From contig JAKAGT010000023.1 of assembly GCA_021825585.1 (NCBI GenBank), positions 1 through 64,000 of the forward strand: a DNA stretch of 64,000 nucleotides, read 5' to 3'. Numbering within the stretch: position 1 is the first letter of the stretch; every line of letters begins with the position of its first letter. The notes below the pieces were generated by a model. It had not been told where the DNA came from. It saw only the letters and a list, made by a program, of their open reading frames with translations, and did no database searches. Position numbers and translations under genes: made by a program. Positions 35,395-44,526 of this stretch are shown here, one piece after another. Source of the stretch: Bacteroidota bacterium (GTDB lineage Bacteria; Bacteroidota; Ignavibacteria; Kryptoniales; JAKASW01).

Positions 35395-35520
35395 TGGGAG
35401 CCGTGGCAATCCCATACTTAGTGGCATTACCCATGGATTTACTCCCCCCGTTCACAGGCTTCATTCGGGGGATTGCCACGTCGTCACGCCTTCGGCGTGA
35501 CTCCTCGCAATGACTGGTTG
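35395..35520. repeat. MITE-like repeat, copy B
   Basis: This copy begins with CCGTGGCAATCCCATACTTA and ends with a 52-base block (35469-35520) that is identical to 36931-36982. The block contains GTCACGCC/GGCGTGAC, a perfect hairpin. Inverted end motifs (GTGGCAATCCC and GGGGATTGCCAC) suggest a foldback element without coding capacity. Confidence 0.8.
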
Positions 35521-35761
35521 TTGGCAGGCAACTTCCGCACTGCTAGATTTGCTGACCAACACCTCGAAGACATTCACCGCCATACTCCTCCTCTTCCTCT
35601 GCGTTGCCGTCAGCTCGAAGTCGACCACGGCACTGGACTCCGCGGGGTGGCAGATGATCGCGACACCGTCGGTCGTCGTGCTTTACACGCTGGCCTGGAG
35701 TCTTATGATTGCTGTAACCTGGAGGGTAAAACAGCGGAGGATGGAGAAAGACGAAACCTAA
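35510..35761 (+). CDS. small two-helix membrane protein
   Basis: Up to 83 residues with two hydrophobic helices (FTAILLLFLCVAVSS and SVVVLYTLAWSLMIAVTW) and a basic-acidic tail. The ATG at 35510 lies inside the repeat; a TTG at 35549 (LLTNTSKTF) matches the point where similarity to the broken second copy at 37.1 kb begins, so it may be the true start. Function unknown. Confidence 0.5.
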   Translation: MTGCWQATSALLDLLTNTSKTFTAILLLFLCVAVSSKSTTALDSAGWQMIATPSVVVLYTLAWSLMIAVTWRVKQRRMEKDET

Positions 35762-35809: not shown

Positions 35810-36076
35810 TTACGGGAAGGCTTTATAGATATCTTTACGGTGAACTATCCTTGCAAACTGTACCAGGTCGTCTTCGACGAAAATTCCGATTCGGTAATCG
35901 CCAAGTCTTATTCGATATGCCGATTTGAACCCGGTCAGTTTCTTGACCTGTGGAATGTTGCTGAGTGATTCGGCCGCTTCAATCTGGAGGATCAATCTTG
36001 CAACCGACCTCTTGACGCTTTTTACAGGAATCTTGTTTATGTCCCTGCTAAACCTCTCGAGGAACTCAACGCGCAT
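35810..36076 (-). CDS. RelE/ParE-family toxin
   Basis: The 88-residue protein has the fold signature of the ParE/RelE superfamily: N-terminal MRVEFLERFSRDINKI, central IPQVKKLTG and the core YRIRLGDYRIGIFVED, followed by FARIVHRKDIYK. Such toxins block translation by mRNA cleavage or act on gyrase. It starts two bases after the stop of the antitoxin-type gene, the usual order for this class. Confidence 0.88.
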   Translation of the reverse strand: MRVEFLERFSRDINKIPVKSVKRSVARLILQIEAAESLSNIPQVKKLTGFKSAYRIRLGDYRIGIFVEDDLVQFARIVHRKDIYKAFP

Positions 36077-36078
36077 TA

Positions 36079-36276
36079 CTATTTCAACTTCTTCATTACA
36101 GACTTGCGACTGACTTTTTTAGTCCTGTCGGCTTCTTTCATCATTGAAGACAGCCCCGCATCCTCGATAGCCTCTTCATCGACAAGGCTCGACTTGATTC
36201 CAAGTTTGTGCAGGAGGTCGGATAGAAATTTCAAGTCTGATTTTGTTTTCGGTTTGACGACAAGTGCTTTGCCCAT
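36079..36276 (-). CDS. antitoxin partner of the RelE/ParE toxin
   Basis: A 65-residue highly charged protein (MGKALVVKPKTKSDLKFL...RKSVMKKLK), the size and composition of small antitoxins, ending two bases before the toxin gene. GGAAAAG precedes its ATG. No DNA-binding motif can be named, so the assignment rests on position and size. Confidence 0.75.
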   Translation of the reverse strand: MGKALVVKPKTKSDLKFLSDLLHKLGIKSSLVDEEAIEDAGLSSMMKEADRTKKVSRKSVMKKLK

Positions 36277-36364: not shown

Positions 36365-36480
36365 CTCCTGTCATCGCCACGCGAAGCGCGTGGTCGGGGC
36401 GTGACAATCCCCCACACGACCCCTATCATCGCGATCCCGAACACGCGATGGCGGGATCGGGAGTGGCAATCCCCTTCTTA
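36365..36480. repeat. MITE-like repeat, partial copy C
   Basis: TGTCATCGCCACGCGAAGCGC, GTGACAATCCCC, ATCATCGCGATCCC and GGGAGTGGCAATCCCC are the same building blocks as in the neighbouring copies, arranged as two half-elements in tandem. Confidence 0.65.
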
Positions 36481-36485
36481 CAAGT

Positions 36486-36788
36486 CTATGGCCCCCACTC
36501 AAGCACCTGGTCGCCCAGGTCCAACCACCCGGGGTTCATGCTGTTTATCAGCTCCTCCTTCTTCTTTCTCGACCACGATTTGATTTGCTTTTCGCGGGCT
36601 ATTGCGGTATTCGCATCGGAACAGAATTCATAATACACCAGCTTGTCGACGTTGTACCTCTTTGTGAACCCCGGGAATGCTTTCTCTTTGTGTTGTCTTA
36701 CTCTTTGCTGCAGGATGCTCGACACGCCCGTGTAGAGCACGGTGTTATACTTGTTTGTCATCATATAAACGCAAAACACTTTCTCCAT
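36486..36788 (-). CDS. GIY-YIG domain protein
   Basis: A stand-alone 100-residue GIY-YIG nuclease-fold protein. The signature is VYMMTNKYNTVLYTGVSS, the arginine is in QQRVRQHKEK, and the conserved E and R appear in AIAREKQIKSWSRKKKEELI. Such small proteins resemble the catalytic part of UvrC and homing endonucleases, but their biological role is not established. It is flanked on both sides by MITE-like repeats. Confidence 0.88.
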   Translation of the reverse strand: MEKVFCVYMMTNKYNTVLYTGVSSILQQRVRQHKEKAFPGFTKRYNVDKLVYYEFCSDANTAIAREKQIKSWSRKKKEELINSMNPGWLDLGDQVLEWGP

Positions 36789-36824: not shown

Positions 36825-37065
36825 TCGTCATTGCGATCCCGAGCACGCGACAGCGTGATCGGGAGTGGCAATCCCAAACTTGGTGGTACAACGCCAGGGA
36901 TGTGCTGTCCCGATTCGCAGGTTTCATGTTGGGGATTGCCACGTCGTCACGCCTTCGGCGTGACTCCTCGCAATGACTGGTTAATTGGCAGGGACAATTC
37001 CTAAAAGTCACCTGTCATCGTGAGTGGCGCGTTTCGCGCCACGTGACGATCCCCTACTTAGTAGA
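36825..37065. repeat. MITE-like repeat, copies D and E
   Basis: Copy D (36825-36985) runs from CGTCATTGCGATCCC through GGGAGTGGCAATCCC to the 52-base block shared with copy B. Copy E (37013-37065) is a half element beginning TGTCATCGTGAGTGGCGCG with its own hairpin GGCGCGTTTCGCGCC. Confidence 0.8.
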
Positions 37066-37080
37066 TCCGCGGCTCCCACA

Positions 37081-37278
37081 CTGCTCGGCTTGCTGACGAA
37101 CACTCCGAAGTCATTCACCGCCATACTCCTCCTCTTCCTCTGCGTTGCCGTCGGCTCGAAGACGGCGCTTGAATTCGAGGGATAACACATAGTTGCGACA
37201 CCATCCGTGATTGCGGCTTACGCGCTAACTGCATGTCTTATGATTGCTGTAACCTTGGGGTGGAGCGATGGAGAATAA
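37081..37278 (+). pseudogene. broken second copy of the small membrane protein
   Basis: Codons from 37081 read LLGLLTNTPKSFTAILLLFL and continue CVAVGSKTALEFEG, a TAA stop, then IVATPSV...CLMIAVTLGW. This aligns end to end with the 35510-35761 product. The stop replaces a tryptophan of the intact copy and no ATG is present. Confidence 0.65.
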
Positions 37279-37439: not shown

Positions 37440-37925
37440 CTAAAAGGCATTTGTCTTTTGTGCAGCAGGGGACGACGCGTGGTCGGCGGGGAGGAACGAT
37501 CCGCGACCTTTATGGGCCTCGCCCACAAAGCGAGACACACGAGAGACACACTTGAATGGTTTGGCTGATAGATCATGCTCCCAGATTCTAACTACGTGCC
37601 AACCATTATCACGTAGGATTCGGGTCACTTTCTTATCTCGAGCAACATTTGCCGACAGTTTCTTTTTCCAGAACCCGCGATTATTCCTGGGCATCTTCGA
37701 GTGAAGAGGACATCGATGCCAAAAGCACCCGTCGACAAACACAACAACTTGGCTCTTGGGAAACGTGAAGTCCGGCCTTCCGGGCAAATCAAGGTGCAGT
37801 CTCCACCCAGATATTTTGTACTTCCTGAAGAGTCTGGCGAGGACTTGTTCGGTTTCTTCGTTGCCTCGCCCGCGTATGCGCGCCATGACCTCCGAGCGTT
37901 TCGCCTGACTAAAAACATCTGACAT
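37440..37925 (-). CDS. vsr: very short patch repair endonuclease
   Basis: Nicks DNA at T:G mismatches that arise when 5-methylcytosine deaminates. The catalytic Asp is in LPGRPDF (about residue 51), the zinc/aromatic segment in VDGCFWHRCPLH, and the C-terminal block NVARDKKVTRILRDNGWHVVRIWE is typical. The length of 161 residues fits. It is last in a five-gene run with a cytosine-C5 methyltransferase, five bases after the previous gene, as expected for Vsr guarding against that methylase's mutagenic by-products. Confidence 0.95.
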   Translation of the reverse strand: MSDVFSQAKRSEVMARIRGRGNEETEQVLARLFRKYKISGWRLHLDLPGRPDFTFPKSQVVVFVDGCFWHRCPLHSKMPRNNRGFWKKKLSANVARDKKVTRILRDNGWHVVRIWEHDLSAKPFKCVSRVSRFVGEAHKGRGSFLPADHASSPAAQKTNAF

Positions 37926-37930
37926 TTGGG

Positions 37931-38452
37931 CTAGTGCAAAGCGTTTTTCTTAGGCGGTTGGGCCTTATCGACAGAGAAGACAAGTTTTGCCTTCGAGAGG
38001 GTCTTCATTGAACAGCCCACGTACCAAGCGTTCATCCTCTTATCCCACAAGCGGACCTTGGTAAATTGTTTCCAGGAGAACTGGTGAATCGATTTTAGCG
38101 ACCAATCGTCGTGCAGGGAAACTATTAGAAGTTCTTCGAAGAGTTGCTTGTGCTCGTCCTCCGGGTCAGGATAGATCGTTCCACTTTTTTTGGCATTGCA
38201 TATTGTCTTGATGGAATATCTGTCCCCACCGCGTGAAAGTGCATCAACATTCTTTGTTCCCTTTGGCGCCGCTTGGAGTTTCGGAAGGCCCGAAGTCTCT
38301 CGAAAATATTTGACGGCAAGCTTTTCGCCCAGCTCCCCAACAGTAAATGCGATGCCTCGTTTCCTCATCTCCTTATCAAGGTTTGCGCGGAGTAAGACCA
38401 ACTGATCATCAGATAATAAACCAAGATTGTTATTCATCTTCATCAGGTTCAT
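37931..38452 (-). CDS. putative restriction endonuclease of a cytosine-methylation locus
   Basis: A 173-residue protein without a named catalytic family that I can assign firmly. The segment GELGEKLAVKYFRETSG followed by NVDALSRGGDRYSIKTI places Glu, Asp and an IK pair in the spacing of a PD-(D/E)xK-type nuclease core. The C-terminus (FSWKQFTKVRLWDKRMNAWY) may be a specificity part. It resembles DUF6998-type proteins. It lies between vsr and the receiver gene in the cluster, so it is the best candidate for the restriction nuclease. Confidence 0.6.
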   Translation of the reverse strand: MNLMKMNNNLGLLSDDQLVLLRANLDKEMRKRGIAFTVGELGEKLAVKYFRETSGLPKLQAAPKGTKNVDALSRGGDRYSIKTICNAKKSGTIYPDPEDEHKQLFEELLIVSLHDDWSLKSIHQFSWKQFTKVRLWDKRMNAWYVGCSMKTLSKAKLVFSVDKAQPPKKNALH

Positions 38453-38466
38453 TAGCCAGCAAAAGC

Positions 38467-39651
38467 CTATCGAACGTTTTCGGAGGGCGTTGATGAACCC
38501 GGATCCGAAGAATTTCTAGGCAAACCAGCCTTCAGTCGATCGATCACAACAGTCTTATCAAGATCAGTCGTTCCCAGCCGACCGAAGTATCTGGAAAAGC
38601 GGGAAAGTAGCGCTTCCGCATATGGACTGTCCAGATGCGCGACTACGACAAGGGCGCTTAATTCCTCTTTTGTGACTGCTTTTAGCATCTGAAAATCTAC
38701 GATCAAATCAGGCATGAAGAAGGTTCCAGGAAGGTACTTGAACCTCTCTGATTGGACGTCCAATCTCCCATCTGCTATGAGGGCTTTTAACGAAGCTAGC
38801 TCCTCCCCAGCCTTTTCGTCTGTCGCCCACTTTTGATATTCAGGCTGATCCGTCAGGTGGTGGCATCGTCCTAGGAGCACTCGCTCAATCCTATCCTTCT
38901 GTTCGAAGTCACATGAGGGGGTAAGGACAACCCAGAAGACCCCATCGCCCCCCACCTTTTCGGTAACTATCTCTCCAGCCGAATGATTCTCTGCCAAGGG
39001 TGGGAAAATATACAACTCCATCGGATGTGCCTTGTGGGGGTCCGCCACCGGTATTCCCTTACCTGCAATGGGATGAACGAGCTTTCTTGCTTTACCCTCT
39101 AGGGTCATGGCAAGTCTTCGAGCAAGTAGGTAAGCCAAGTCGCTCTGCTCATGAGCAGATTTGAAGCTCGCCCAATTCTTATGGACAAAATCCCACATGT
39201 ACTCTCTCTGTGCCTCATCAATAATTCTGATAATCGAAGGCAGGCCCGTTTCAAAGATGTTCTTAATCTTTTCTCCGACTGCAGAAATGCCGTCAGTCTT
39301 CTCAACGACGTGGACAAATGCGGTTTCTTCAGGCAAAACACGCTTCGGTAACGCTGTGTAGAATACAACAGCGGCGAATCGTTGCTTCTTTATGTGCTCA
39401 TATATTTCCAAACCGGGTAGCTCTTCTGTTCCGAGTATGGAGCTTTTATCGTCCTTCAGGTCAACTATTGCAAAGTCATATCGAAGGGAATCCAGTCCTT
39501 CCTTTGCGGACTTGAAGTCTTTGTAGACTTCAGATGTTGCGGTGTCAGGAGCTTGCACGAATGTCGGACATGCTTCGCTGAGCTGACGTGCTATGGTTTC
39601 GTCATCTTCAATTATTACAAAACGCCACTCAGTTCCTCCACTGGAACTCAT
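38467..39651 (-). CDS. receiver-domain protein with large unknown C-terminal domain
   Basis: Residues about 9-130 form a response-regulator receiver: acidic triad IIEDDE (15-17), phospho-acceptor Asp in FAIVDLKDD (64), Thr in VVFYTALP and Lys in VVEKTDG. The remaining 260 residues are not a known DNA-binding output; they contain WVVLTPSCDFEQKDRIERVLLG and FMPDLIVDFQMLK and look globular. The start overlaps the stop of the dual-ATPase kinase gene (39648-39651), its obvious phosphodonor. It may turn a phosphorylation signal into control of the nuclease. Confidence 0.75.
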   Translation of the reverse strand: MSSSGGTEWRFVIIEDDETIARQLSEACPTFVQAPDTATSEVYKDFKSAKEGLDSLRYDFAIVDLKDDKSSILGTEELPGLEIYEHIKKQRFAAVVFYTALPKRVLPEETAFVHVVEKTDGISAVGEKIKNIFETGLPSIIRIIDEAQREYMWDFVHKNWASFKSAHEQSDLAYLLARRLAMTLEGKARKLVHPIAGKGIPVADPHKAHPMELYIFPPLAENHSAGEIVTEKVGGDGVFWVVLTPSCDFEQKDRIERVLLGRCHHLTDQPEYQKWATDEKAGEELASLKALIADGRLDVQSERFKYLPGTFFMPDLIVDFQMLKAVTKEELSALVVVAHLDSPYAEALLSRFSRYFGRLGTTDLDKTVVIDRLKAGLPRNSSDPGSSTPSENVR

Positions 39652-41867
39652 ACTCGCCTCCGTAGCGTGATCAAAAAGTTTGCCCCCCTGAGAGGGCCTG
39701 GTGAAATGAGCTGAACAGTCCCATCGTAATAATCCGCGACAATCTCACCGACGATGGAAAGACCTAACCCGACGCCTTCAGGCTTGGTCGAGAAGTATGG
39801 CTGAAAGATGGATTCTCTGTTCGCTTGCGGAATCCCTGGGCCACTGTCCGAAAACATGATCTCTACTTGGTCTGCACCATTCCGTTCGATGGAAACCTTT
39901 ATCTCGCGCTTTGATTCTGATACTTGTCCGAGCCAATACAGACTGTTCTGTAACATATTCAAAATCACTTCTTGTATCTCGGCGGGATCAACTCGTACTA
40001 ATGTCTGTGACTTCGGCAACGCTGTTGTGACTTTGAGTTTGGAGATATCATCGTTCAAAACGTCAAACGCATCTTGCACAATGTCTTCTAGATACAGCTG
40101 GCTTGGCCGCCCACGCTTTCGTCCTCCAAAAGGCTCCATCCTACGGAAGGCGGTGGCAACGACGTCTCCCTGTTTCAGAATTGTCAAAAATCGACCAGCG
40201 AAAAGCCTGGATAGTTCCTTCTGAAGAGCATCTGATTGTTTTACATCATTTAAGCCGAGCTCTGCTTCGTTGTTGATGGAGGCAATCGGCTGTCTGCCTT
40301 CATGAAGTACATGATCGATCAACTGCCCGAGGGTAGCAAGTCTCTGATACCGGGCCAGCACAGTCTGTATTTCTTTTAGTTGCTCACCAATCTGTTGCTG
40401 AGTCGTCCTTAAAATCTCCTCAGCCTTTTCATCCTTAGGATGCTTTTTCGCAATGTGATCCGATAGTGATGATAAATCAAATCCAGAGAATATTCCGCCC
40501 ACCGCCTTCGGCCCCTTTGTGGACTCTTTCGGGCGTTTTGCTTCCCAACGCAATTCCTCTATCTTAGCAAGTATGGCATGGATGACATCCCGAAAATCTT
40601 CAAATGCTTGGTTCTCCTGCAAGCCTTGTCGGTTCGATTGGTCACTAAGCTGTGTGTTAGTGTCCGCTGAAATTGAAACAGCCCCGTACACTTGATTATT
40701 AGACAACCTGAGTGTGGGGTTCTGAACCCGGCGGCGTTCCAATTTGAACGAGTCGTCGTCAGGTTCGCCGTACGGCAAAACTCGGAATCCATCTCGATAA
40801 ATGTTTATCCCTGCAAATGCATCCAAATCGCGCCTTACTTCCTTGATCGTCGAATCTGTCTTCTGGATAACGTTACCCAGGTCATCCCGATCCCATGCTC
40901 TTAATTCAAATTCAAATGGGCCACATTCTATAAATTTTCTTTCTTCGGGCATCTCACCATGCTCCAATCCTCGAACCACAAATTGACCAGCGGTGTCTTT
41001 GATGCGCACGAATTGTCCTTTGAACTGCTTCTCGGTACCTTCCGCAAGCACCCTGCAACGGATCGCGTAGCTACCGTCGCTCTGTATAGTAGCCCGAACA
41101 AAGTAGTGTGGATACTTCAGAATATCCGGTGGTTCAACTTTGCTACTGTATTGAGAGAACTCTTCAGGTAAGCTTAACTCAATTTCAAAGTCCTGCGCTT
41201 TGGAAGCCTGAGGTGAAACGAGACGAGCCAAACCTCGTCTTAAGTCTTCGAATTGTTTTGTTTCCCATTTCTGCTTCAGGGAACTCATCCGAAGGATCGT
41301 TCCTTTTTCCAAGGCAGCGGGCCTCGGTCCTTTCCTTTCGTTTCTCCAAAGTGCCTCGATTGCTCCGCCCGGACAGATATCGGATGGCTTTCGGGACTCC
41401 CACAAAACAATAACTTCATCCAGATATTTCTTTTCATCCTCAAACTGGGTCCAGTCGAAGATCGCATAGACCTCCCTTTCCGTGCCTTCGAGTCGCGAGA
41501 TGACCTCAAGCTGATTTGCCAAGCGCGACGACGCGAATCTGCCGATCCCCTTTTGTCCCAAGTATCTACGCTTTAACCTTTCAGTGTGATCTCTTTCTCG
41601 TTTGGAAGGAGTTGCCGGTTCCATCCATACACTTTTGACGGTAGCGAGATTCATCCCGCGACCATTATCCATGACTTCTATTTGCCCGCTCATCTTTTCC
41701 AAAGGAGGTGTGAACTCAATAAGCACGCGGGTCGCGTCAGCATCGTATGCGTTCTTCACCAACTCAATGACCGCGACAACCTCATTGCTAATCAGTTCTT
41801 CGCCGAGAGTCCGCAGCATCCTGGCACGTGGACGCAGAAATGTCCCAGGTTCAGGTTGTCCAGTCAA
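39648..41867 (-). CDS. dual-GHKL protein: MORC/Hsp90-like ATPase fused to histidine kinase
   Basis: A 739-residue protein with two ATP-binding domains. The first (about 20-230) is of Hsp90/MutL/MORC type: VIELVKNAYDADA (34-46), MDNGRGM (66-72) and GQKGIGRFASSRL (104-116). A middle region (230-430) resembles the transducer part. A helical segment (480-545) carries a histidine in LHEGRQPIASI (His522), at the place of the kinase H-box. The C-terminal HATPase has N-box NMLQNSLYWL (637-646), SDSGPGI (673-679) and GVGLGLSI (698-705). No membrane segment. It overlaps the methylase gene upstream and the receiver gene downstream by four bases each. Confidence 0.85.
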   Translation of the reverse strand: MTGQPEPGTFLRPRARMLRTLGEELISNEVVAVIELVKNAYDADATRVLIEFTPPLEKMSGQIEVMDNGRGMNLATVKSVWMEPATPSKRERDHTERLKRRYLGQKGIGRFASSRLANQLEVISRLEGTEREVYAIFDWTQFEDEKKYLDEVIVLWESRKPSDICPGGAIEALWRNERKGPRPAALEKGTILRMSSLKQKWETKQFEDLRRGLARLVSPQASKAQDFEIELSLPEEFSQYSSKVEPPDILKYPHYFVRATIQSDGSYAIRCRVLAEGTEKQFKGQFVRIKDTAGQFVVRGLEHGEMPEERKFIECGPFEFELRAWDRDDLGNVIQKTDSTIKEVRRDLDAFAGINIYRDGFRVLPYGEPDDDSFKLERRRVQNPTLRLSNNQVYGAVSISADTNTQLSDQSNRQGLQENQAFEDFRDVIHAILAKIEELRWEAKRPKESTKGPKAVGGIFSGFDLSSLSDHIAKKHPKDEKAEEILRTTQQQIGEQLKEIQTVLARYQRLATLGQLIDHVLHEGRQPIASINNEAELGLNDVKQSDALQKELSRLFAGRFLTILKQGDVVATAFRRMEPFGGRKRGRPSQLYLEDIVQDAFDVLNDDISKLKVTTALPKSQTLVRVDPAEIQEVILNMLQNSLYWLGQVSESKREIKVSIERNGADQVEIMFSDSGPGIPQANRESIFQPYFSTKPEGVGLGLSIVGEIVADYYDGTVQLISPGPLRGANFLITLRRRV

Positions 41868-42850
41868 GGCTTCTTTAATCCTTCAAAGATCAATTCAGTG
41901 ACCACCGTTTTCATCACAGGAGGACAAACGGCGTTTCCTATCATTTTAATTTTGTCTCTACGCGATCCATATTCAAATTTCATCTCTTCAGGCATTCCCA
42001 TCGCAGCCTTTAACTCGTCCACCTGCAACATGCGCATGAGATGCCCCTTGTTCGAAGGTTTCACGATCGCAAATCTATCTAACGTAGTGATCGTGCGAAG
42101 CGGTCTTCCCAACTTCTGCCAGCCTCCTCCATGATCAGAACCATAGTATACGATGAGAAATGGTCTATTCTCACCTACCTCTTTCATTGCGCGGCTGGCC
42201 CTGCGAAGAGTTGCCCGAGCGCGGTTCCTCTTTCGTAGAGGCGTCCAATCATACTTCCCATTTAGGTTGATTATTGCTTTTGCTCTCAGCAATCTGTTTT
42301 TATTTGGTCGAATTTGCGAAGGATTACGTTTCAAATCACACAGGATGAACAAGCGCCGGCGTGTTTGGGGTACTCCGAACAGAGAAGCGTCCAATACCTG
42401 TTCGCGTATGTTATAACCAAGTGCCTGAAGTGAATCCTTCAATTCCATATAACGACCCCATCGCCTCATGCTCACCACGTTTTCAATTACAATCCATCGC
42501 GGTTTGAGCTTCTTTGCAAAACGAACAACTTGGAAAGCAGTATCCCTGCTTTTCGCTGAACCGGGTTTGTTTCCACGGGCTGGGCTATGGCTGGTACATT
42601 CAGGAGACGCGATAATAAGATCTATCTCCCCAACTTCTTTGGCAATCTGATTTATGTCAAGATCTTCGACTTGTCCTGGATAGAACTTAGCCGAAGGAAA
42701 GTTCGCAACGTGGGTTTGACCAGCTACGTTCCATGAATCGAAGGCCGCTACAATCTCCACACCAGCAGATTTGGCGCCCCAACTGCTTCCGCCCCCGCCA
42801 CTGAACATATCAATTGCACGAATCGTTCTTTTGGAAATCTTGCTCATCAC
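41864..42850 (-). CDS. dcm: DNA (cytosine-5-)-methyltransferase
   Basis: Makes 5-methylcytosine at an unknown target. Motif I is DMFSGGGGSSWG (about residues 14-25), the catalytic Cys is in SPECTSHSPARG, motif VI is IVIENVV, motif VIII QTRRRLF and motif X GNAVCPPV. The length of 328 residues means a short target-recognition region (about 180-260). GTG (42850) or the adjoining ATG (42847) starts it. First gene of the five-gene defence run, separated from the neighbouring type II system by 240 bases. Confidence 0.94.
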   Translation of the reverse strand: MMSKISKRTIRAIDMFSGGGGSSWGAKSAGVEIVAAFDSWNVAGQTHVANFPSAKFYPGQVEDLDINQIAKEVGEIDLIIASPECTSHSPARGNKPGSAKSRDTAFQVVRFAKKLKPRWIVIENVVSMRRWGRYMELKDSLQALGYNIREQVLDASLFGVPQTRRRLFILCDLKRNPSQIRPNKNRLLRAKAIINLNGKYDWTPLRKRNRARATLRRASRAMKEVGENRPFLIVYYGSDHGGGWQKLGRPLRTITTLDRFAIVKPSNKGHLMRMLQVDELKAAMGMPEEMKFEYGSRRDKIKMIGNAVCPPVMKTVVTELIFEGLKKP

Positions 42851-43090: not shown

Positions 43091-43777
43091 TCAGCCCTTT
43101 CGGCCATATCCTTTCGGTGCTTCGAAAAACGCGAGTTGGGCATCAACGTGTGCCTTTCGCTTTGCAACACCGTGGAATGAATTTCTTTCGACGTCTTCAT
43201 TCCCCCATTGGTCCCATCCGTCACGCTTGAACCTCGCGAACAATTCCAAATAAGGTCCCGGCGAACACGCCTCGATCAGATCGTAAAATTCGTCCGGCTT
43301 TCTGGAGTGCTCACGCTTGCGCGTGCTCAGCAGATTCACTTGTGTCCGGCCGGACTGCAGTGTTCTCATCCTCCCCCGTATTCCGAAAAGAATCAGCTCG
43401 GTGACATTCCGGAAATAGAAACCAACTCCTCTACCATCAGGACCGCCATCCTTGCGCACCTTGTACCACACAAGGTTGGTCTTGTATGTAAAGCCCCATG
43501 CCTCCATGACACGCAACCCATCCTGGAGCAGTGCGTTCGGAACCCATAGATATAGGTGAGACTTTGCCGCGGCAAGCTGGCGTACCGGAAGCTCCATAAT
43601 TTCCTTAAGCTCCATCGTTGGATATCTCAGCAGCCGCCTGTGCTCGGGGGCTACCTTTCCCGTGCGGTTCTGAAATTGCCAGGGCGGATCAACGAGAATC
43701 GTTGAATACGGACCCGTCGCCTTTGAAACCAAATCTACTGAAGCGTTCGGCTCACTTACTTTATAAACTTTACCCAT
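43091..43777 (-). CDS. MT-A70-family DNA adenine methyltransferase
   Basis: N6-adenine methylase with the catalytic motif in LVDPPWQFQNR and family blocks LYLWVPNALLQDGL, WGFTYKTNLVWYK and REHSRKPDEFYDLIE. The length of 228 residues is typical. GGAGAG sits before the ATG. It follows the BglII-like endonuclease gene by 20 bases on the same strand, making the protective half of a type II restriction system. Confidence 0.92.
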   Translation of the reverse strand: MGKVYKVSEPNASVDLVSKATGPYSTILVDPPWQFQNRTGKVAPEHRRLLRYPTMELKEIMELPVRQLAAAKSHLYLWVPNALLQDGLRVMEAWGFTYKTNLVWYKVRKDGGPDGRGVGFYFRNVTELILFGIRGRMRTLQSGRTQVNLLSTRKREHSRKPDEFYDLIEACSPGPYLELFARFKRDGWDQWGNEDVERNSFHGVAKRKAHVDAQLAFFEAPKGYGRKG

Positions 43778-43797
43778 ATTTCATCTCTCCATGAACA

Positions 43798-44526
43798 TTA
43801 AATAACCACGACGTCTATCGGGATGCCGATCAAAAGCAGAGGACACGGATTCCCGACTCCTCTATGCACCCGGTCTTCAAGCTTTCTCCAATGCGTCGTT
43901 GCCTCTCCAAATTTATCGCCCATGAAGGCGTGCGCCCATCCCTTTTCAAATGACTTTTTCGATTTAGCTGCCTGTCTGATCTTTTCCTTTTGCCGGTCGG
44001 TCGGATGGTAAAACCTCTGAAGCTTCTCAATTGCGTCGATCCCGTTCTTCTTGGCAAAAGCTTCGAACGCCTTTTCAAGACCTTTGTGCAACGACTCTCC
44101 GCGGGTGATTATCCCACCGATGGAAATCACCCCGTCCGCGTGAAGTCTTTTGAAGTTTTCCAGGTCACGATCGTAGAAGGGATCTTTATTATTCCACTCG
44201 ATCTCCAGCGCAAACGTCCCGCTCTGAAACTTTTTCACGTGATCAATTTCGTGAGAAATGGATTCCTTTTCCACTCCGTCCACGGTCTTCTTGATTTCAA
44301 AGATATGCTTTTCCCAACCGTATGTCTCTGCAAGAGAGTGCCTCAATCTCTGCGTCAGCTCCCCCTCGCCTCCTCCGCCGTAAACGAGTTCTTCGATAGG
44401 TATGCTGATGCTTCCCATGACTGCCTCAAGCTCCTTAACTGCAGTTCCCATGTCGTGTTTCAGGATGGCCTCCGCATGGTGAAGCGTAAGCACCTGAAAG
44501 CCCTTTTTCCTAATTGATTCAAACAT
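43798..44526 (-). CDS. BglII/BstYI-like type II restriction endonuclease
   Basis: The 242-residue protein matches the BglII-family layout. The acidic site lies in SHEIDHVK, followed by FALEIEWNNKDPFYDRDL and the downstream block LHADGVISIGGIITRG. The Glu-x-Glu before WNNKD is the metal-binding centre of this PD-(D/E)xK branch. Recognition sites in the family are GATC-centred, but the specificity of this enzyme cannot be read. It is paired with the MT-A70 methylase 20 bases downstream. Confidence 0.85.
   Translation of the reverse strand: MFESIRKKGFQVLTLHHAEAILKHDMGTAVKELEAVMGSISIPIEELVYGGGGEGELTQRLRHSLAETYGWEKHIFEIKKTVDGVEKESISHEIDHVKKFQSGTFALEIEWNNKDPFYDRDLENFKRLHADGVISIGGIITRGESLHKGLEKAFEAFAKKNGIDAIEKLQRFYHPTDRQKEKIRQAAKSKKSFEKGWAHAFMGDKFGEATTHWRKLEDRVHRGVGNPCPLLLIGIPIDVVVI

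Follow-up and report, generated by a model that had tools for sequence, protein, structure and literature searches.

The window, a 64,000-nucleotide stretch of contig JAKAGT010000023.1 (assembly GCA_021825585.1, positions 1 to 64,000, forward strand) from a Bacteroidota bacterium, contains a five-gene operon. It encodes a C5-cytosine DNA methyltransferase (Dcm), a paraMORC-type histidine kinase (HK), a receiver protein (RR), a 173-residue predicted nuclease of the BisI family and a very-short-patch T:G mismatch endonuclease (Vsr). The evidence supports HK, RR and dcm, often with vsr, as a unit that recurs and keeps its phosphorelay residues; the nuclease is an accessory of this core. The operon represents a sister class of a kind of locus known from computational work and is not categorically new. 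The operon is interpreted as a phosphorelay-controlled, C5-methylation-linked restriction operon for phage defence, an interpretation for which the evidence is evenly poised.

Recurrence of the HK–RR–methylase core

Comparison loci are labelled with L-numbers. In a survey of 395 genomes of the phylum, two kinds of match were used, namely those with E<1e-100, which define full-length RR, and those to the C-terminal domain of RR; weaker matches to the receiver (REC) profile were left unused because ordinary response regulators swamped the search. Full-length RR is found in seven of these genomes, always beside HK and a C5-methylase and in six cases with Vsr. Three of the seven loci (L024-L026) have the order dcm-HK-RR-vsr, which is the window order minus the nuclease gene. 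A Chloroflexaceae genome carries dcm, a MutY-like glycosylase gene, HK and RR. At L002 (5071-5799), a MutY/EndoIII-like DNA glycosylase gene lies between dcm and HK with no nearby Vsr, and its product is possibly a functional replacement for T:G repair.

Viral and proviral contigs were scanned with conserved kinase motifs only, and the resulting sample is therefore free of neighbour bias. The scan yielded 46 kinases, which fall into 39 clusters when grouped at 70% identity. A receiver-like gene directly follows HK in all 37 clusters with readable downstream sequence. A C5-methylase lies within 3.5 kb in 27 of the 39 clusters and Vsr in 11, and several clusters without a C5-methylase carry adenine methylases instead. 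The recurrence of gene order that the original prediction, made from the sequence of the window, put forward as a check holds for the HK-RR-C5-methylase core, often with Vsr, but not for the five-gene set with the nuclease (0 of the 39 clusters). The BisI-like gene was found with HK and RR only in the window locus, and a conserved five-gene unit is rejected because this gene is missing from all other HK loci found.

The host genome, which is listed as 100% complete and comprises 4.97 Mb in 88 contigs, has one detectable C5-methylase and one Vsr, both of which are encoded in this operon. Together with the recurrence of the core order in unrelated taxa, this argues that the grouping is not due to chance.

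Predicted phosphorelay residues of HK and RR

HK contains two GHKL modules, as originally proposed, which Pfam identifies as HATPase_c_3 (residues 31-149; 2.1e-21) and HATPase_c (residues 627-737; 7.4e-24). The N-terminal module is of the paraMORC kind, and residues 17-230 match the ATPase (GHKL) part of the BbrUII/HgiDII restriction enzymes (2.2e-24). Its ATP motifs (E35, N39, D67, G69, G71 and G104-x-K106-G107) are invariant in all 60 sequences of a homologue alignment. The C-terminal half forms a histidine-kinase core with a DHp-like H-box (H522) and N, G1 and G2 boxes; no significant HisKA match was obtained in this half. H522, N641 and the G2 glycines are invariant in the 58 homologues of the alignment that cover them, in agreement with the proposal that the kinase has an H-box of its own. 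No membrane helix is indicated in HK (maximum 19-residue hydropathy of 0.93).

No Pfam model matches the window RR. In the predicted structural model, RR residues 6-138 adopt the REC fold, with Z scores of about 15 against many response regulators. The acid pocket (E15/D16), the predicted phospho-accepting D64 and T99 are present. D64 is an aspartate in 43 of 44 aligned relatives and the sole invariant column across 38 very divergent receivers; the receiver with an intact Asp64 that had been predicted is thus upheld.

The C-terminal domain of RR is marked by the motif P245-S-C-D248 ... R358-x-G360, and P-S/T-C-D and a C-terminal RxG are found across relatives. In profile comparisons, the domain is convincingly linked to the 450-residue receivers that sister loci encode (probability 92%, E 5.5e-7) and has only a weak link to Response_reg_2 receivers (probability 32%, E 4.7e-4). 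No DNA-binding domain was recognised in RR by Pfam or NCBIfam. Structure prediction, which had been proposed as a check on this protein, recovered the REC fold but gave a poor model of the C-terminal domain without a fold match. The C-terminal domain also occurs as a free-standing protein of 186-188 residues in several genomes. Proteins consisting of this domain alone are encoded at L084-L087 and L027; judged by eye, those at L084 and L085 have large restriction enzymes of the helicase type nearby, as genes or as apparent remnants.

The methylase and Vsr

The dcm product matches the Pfam DNA_methylase family (PF00145; 9.7e-42) and contains motif I (DMFSGGG), ENV, QTRRR and GNAVC. The catalytic cysteine sits in PEC, not PPC. 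Vsr matches PF03852 (1.9e-17) and TIGR00632 (109.1 bits, above the cut-off of 97.85). Dcm also matches the PADLOC DrmMII cluster PDLC02654 (1.3e-107). Despite this DrmMII-like methylase, membership in DISARM is rejected, since no helicase-sized open reading frame or DrmABC-like gene (DrmA, DrmB, DrmC) was found between 34 and 46.7 kb of the window.

A BisI-family nuclease in a methylase operon

The 173-residue protein, which had been described as a putative PD-(D/E)xK protein, can be given a narrower name: by profile, fold, catalytic residues and methyl-binding dyad, it is assigned to the BisI family of nucleases, which depend on 5-methylcytosine (5mC). PADLOC places it among methyl-directed Type II enzymes (2.5e-53). 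A profile built from ten relatives hits two BisI-family enzymes of solved structure, Eco15I (3.9e-9) and NhoI (0.0075), and the homologue at L043 alone matches Eco15I (1.8e-10); the single window sequence matched no solved BisI-family enzyme at E<=1. The AlphaFold2 model (predicted local distance difference test score of 80.5) has the expected nuclease fold, with NhoI and Eco15I as the best Foldseek matches (E 1e-8, TMq 0.67) and PvuII as the next closest fold. The predicted catalytic residues E43, D70 and S80-I-K82 are invariant or near-invariant, and S80 takes the position of a glutamine in NhoI. R139-M140 aligns with H139-V140 of Eco15I, the (H/R)(V/I/T/M) dyad that touches internal methyl groups in NhoI and Eco15I (PMC11347163). 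The dyad is RM in dcm-linked members (window, Rhizobium and L088-L091), or RT in L015, and SK in L092-L097.

Relatives of the nuclease lie beside dcm and vsr on Rhizobium plasmids, where the dcm-vsr-nuclease unit recurs. They also adjoin dcm with no kinase on Rhizobium plasmids (L015, L016) and on phage or prophage contigs (L088-L091), and stand alone at L043, L044 and L092-L097. On a plasmid of Rhizobium sp. T1470 (L014), only residues 310-503 of the linked dcm remain, and they follow an IS5 transposase gene; vsr is retained, as is the BisI-like gene, whose C-terminus is altered. No relative was found in named phage records. BisI itself adjoins an inactive C5-methylase (PMC4926085). In the operon of the cell's only 5mC writer, a nuclease of a 5mC-dependent family is a real puzzle rather than part of a plain restriction-modification (R-M) pair, and its family membership makes the simple reading that the methylase protects and the nuclease restricts doubtful.

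Swappable genes after the receiver

Sister loci contain short receivers of about 210-240 residues that lack the C-terminal domain. An HNH nuclease gene follows the short receiver in six of these loci, recognised by Pfam in L105 and L122 and by eye in L108, L125, L126 and L141; in part of these loci, the HNH gene is followed by an Eco57I-type methylase gene. Three dcm-HK-REC loci on viral contigs (L123, L124 and L143) instead encode a His-Cys protein of about 200-220 residues (L123:8667-9272, L124:9190-9855 and L143:9205-9873) directly after the short receiver and downstream of dcm. These proteins share an invariant His-Gly and Cys, and a profile of the three sequences matches legumain (0.0016) and caspase-2 (about 0.1); they are possible protease effectors that kill the cell and are coupled to a DNA-methylase locus. 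The BisI-like gene of the window occupies the same slot after the receiver as the HNH and legumain/caspase-like genes. Such swapping favours a phosphorelay that would control an exchangeable effector.

Other restriction and defence genes accompany the pair elsewhere. L103 has an EcoRII-type enzyme (EcoRII-C, 4.5e-68) beside HK-RR, dcm and vsr, L022 has an McrB-like AAA protein with HK-RR, and L010 has an MZA anti-phage ATPase (MzaB, 1.9e-122) two genes after HK-RR.

Operon layout and neighbourhood

All five open reading frames lie on one strand with the close spacing originally described, namely four-base overlaps or gaps of less than 16 bases (Table 1). Start and stop codons overlap at the dcm/HK (TTGA) and HK/RR (ATGA) junctions, and gaps of 14 and 5 nt separate RR from the nuclease gene and the nuclease gene from vsr, respectively.

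Table 1. Genes and predicted phosphorelay residues of the operon (window coordinates)
Feature	Position	Strand	Basis
dcm, C5-cytosine DNA methyltransferase, 328 aa, GTG start	41864..42850	-	PF00145, motifs
HK, paraMORC-type histidine kinase, 739 aa, TTG start	39648..41867	-	Pfam HATPase_c_3 and HATPase_c
H522 codon (CAT), predicted phospho-accepting histidine	40302..40304	-	H in 58/58 homologues covering the column
RR, receiver protein, 394 aa, REC (about 6-138) and C-terminal domain	38467..39651	-	model, alignments
D64 codon, predicted phospho-accepting aspartate	39460..39462	-	D in 43/44 aligned relatives
Predicted BisI-family PD-(D/E)xK endonuclease, 173 aa	37931..38452	-	profile, fold, catalytic residues, dyad
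vsr, very-short-patch T:G mismatch endonuclease, 161 aa	37440..37925	-	PF03852, TIGR00632

Directly upstream on the same strand (43091-44526), an MT-A70-type adenine methylase and a BglII-type endonuclease form a separate R-M pair. This second pair adjoins the operon, and the region thus constitutes a small defence island. On the vsr side, the window contains a pair of ParE-like toxin and RelB-like antitoxin genes (35810-36276) and a gene for a small GIY-YIG domain protein of 100 residues (36486-36788). The stretch beside vsr also contains two long direct repeats, which are imperfect (89 and 92 nt, with 87-88% identity; 35431-35623 and 36894-37164), and a 48-nt repeat at 36426 and 36828.

Relation to known systems

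The original prediction considered the operon the best candidate for an undescribed system, a claim that is not supported. Pairs of an HEF_HK kinase and a Response_reg_2 receiver, which resemble a two-component system, were described computationally beside C5-methylases and Vsr in 628 strains (Bellieny-Rabelo 2021; PMC8011034), and the paraMORC/Dcm/Vsr linkage was published earlier (Iyer 2008; PMC2292703). As in the HEF_HK/Response_reg_2 loci, a soluble kinase composed of HATPase_c_3, DHp-like and HATPase_c regions adjoins a receiver-like protein with a C5-methylase beside the pair, and Vsr and nucleases are often near. The proteins differ in size: the window kinase has 739 residues versus 970-1000 in the HEF_HK members seen, and the window receiver 394 versus 525-580 in the Response_reg_2 members seen. 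In hmmscan analysis, the window kinase did not match PF19191 (HEF_HK) at E<=1, whereas the control kinases of L047 and L049 did (7e-20 and 9e-29). Likewise, PF19192 (Response_reg_2) matched neither the window RR nor 10 relatives nor 38 viral-contig receivers, whereas the controls of L045 and L047 passed (5e-34 and 5e-32). Identity with the two 2021 Pfam families is therefore rejected, and the failure of the window pair where true members pass, together with the size differences, defines a sister class, to which the window adds a BisI-family accessory.

The predicted nuclease resembles BisI, NhoI, Eco15I and EcoBLMcrX in size, fold (TM 0.67 to NhoI), the E ... D-x9-[Q/S]xK pattern and the dyad. 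It differs in having SxK in place of QxK and in sharing an operon with a C5-methylase and a phosphorelay. The operon also resembles paraMORC/MORC restriction operons and MZA, in which a GHKL ATPase occurs with Dcm and Vsr in restriction loci (PMC2292703), and HK-RR-dcm-vsr adjoins the MZA-type ATPase in L010. Unlike in those systems, the window GHKL protein also has a histidine-kinase core, and no Z1 helicase is present.

Experimental precedent for kinase control of immunity is provided by CapK, a GHKL kinase that is activated by single-stranded DNA and frees an immune operon by phosphorylating its repressor; in the related VapK system, a VapC nuclease is under control (PMC13373217). Like the inferred relay, CapK/CapS and VapKSC use a GHKL kinase that phosphorylates a partner and controls an immune operon or a nuclease, often near R-M genes. 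However, they rely on serine phosphorylation of a STAS domain rather than on a His-Asp relay and belong to other protein families. Detocs is a two-component phosphorelay in phage defence that has swappable effectors, a decoy receiver, an effector fused to a receiver and no methylase. By description, its kinase architecture differs from that of HK, and the window operon has a single receiver gene instead of the two receivers, one of them a decoy, that accompany the Detocs kinase; membership in Detocs is rejected. A 2026 prediction paper presents eight predicted defence systems and lists HATPase and REC domains among them (Fig. 6F; PMC13092281), which may correspond to the window system.

Proposed mechanism and alternatives

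The computation establishes the gene identities, the adjacency and recurrence of the core, the invariant His and Asp and the exchange of neighbouring effector genes. We infer a defence role for the operon, a signal sensed by the kinase and relay control of nuclease activity rather than of transcription; a phosphorelay that turns an effector on according to the state of DNA is the most economical reading. In this mechanism, Dcm would mark host DNA and Vsr would mend the T:G mismatches that arise from 5mC deamination. The soluble HK carries its MutL/MORC-like GHKL module where ordinary histidine kinases have a sensor, and HK would clamp onto DNA whose state betrays an invader (unmethylated, damaged or single-stranded). 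HK would then autophosphorylate at H522 and hand the phosphate to D64 of RR, and phospho-RR would turn on an effector via its conserved C-terminal CD/RxG domain. The candidate effector in the window is the BisI-like nuclease encoded by the next gene of the operon; in sister loci, it would be the HNH nuclease or the legumain/caspase-like protease.

Several observations weigh against this mechanism. It is odd to find a 5mC methylase partnered with a nuclease that depends on 5mC, and the BisI-like gene, which is absent from all viral HK clusters, is not a fixed partner of the core. Its relatives that stand alone or beside dcm without a kinase indicate that the nuclease may work without a relay. 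The C-terminal domain of RR has no known fold; model confidence is low in this region, and REC filled the fold lists. The papers searched contained no experiment on any member of the sister class and no functional proof for the whole kind.

A plausible alternative, held with somewhat less confidence, is that the nuclease is an independent modification-dependent (Type IIM/IV-like) enzyme that cuts 5mC-rich phage DNA, that the Dcm motif differs from its target and that the relay has an effector of its own, either the C-terminal domain of RR or Vsr. The family assignment (PMC11347163), the solitary relatives and the lack of the nuclease gene in other HK loci fit this arrangement, as does the persistence of vsr and the altered nuclease gene beside the truncated dcm of L014. 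BisI enzymes generally need 2-4 m5C in GCNGC, and a Dcm with another motif would thus be harmless; BisI also coexists with C5-methyltransferases (PMC4926085). An independent enzyme is less readily reconciled with the tight operonic position between RR and vsr and with the finding that BisI-like genes repeatedly adjoin dcm/vsr as well as the dcm of phages (L088-L091), which suggests more than chance.

It is rather unlikely that HK-RR regulates the transcription or copy number of the methylase/nuclease operon, as C proteins do in ordinary R-M systems, instead of switching enzyme activity. Orthodox two-component pairs mostly control transcription, the CapK/CapS analogue acts on the promoter of its immune operon, and the free-standing form of the RR C-terminal domain also agrees with a regulatory role. 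However, RR has no recognised DNA-binding domain, and a pure promoter-binding model does not predict output-less short receivers beside a separate nuclease or protease gene.

A conventional Type II R-M system, in which the BisI-like enzyme has shifted to unmethylated sites that Dcm protects and the kinase pair is only regulatory, is improbable. The BisI homologues Bce1273I and Bth171I do cut unmodified sites (PMC4926085), the next closest fold is that of the modification-independent PvuII, and the dcm-vsr-nuclease unit recurs on Rhizobium plasmids; however, dcm-linked members retain the 5mC-binding dyad (RM or RT, compared with SK in L092-L097), and L014 kept its nuclease gene after losing the linked dcm, which is unexpected for a toxic Type II enzyme. 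Least probable is a self-mark suicide switch, in which Dcm would write host 5mC and the BisI-like nuclease would be restrained until HK senses infection and phospho-RR frees it to attack the marked DNA of the cell along with any phage DNA to which the mark has spread, the same relay firing the HNH nuclease or legumain/caspase-like protease in sister loci.

If the phosphorelay works as proposed, restriction by this operon would be a signalled, conditional response rather than a constitutive one, and in HK a DNA clamp of the MutL/MORC-like kind would serve a histidine kinase as its sensor. Given the invariant His and Asp residues and the changing effector genes, point mutants offer a direct test of the relay. 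The presence of a C5-methylase together with a predicted BisI-family nuclease also bears on the natural target of the BisI family, a question posed by the authors of its structural analysis (PMC11347163).

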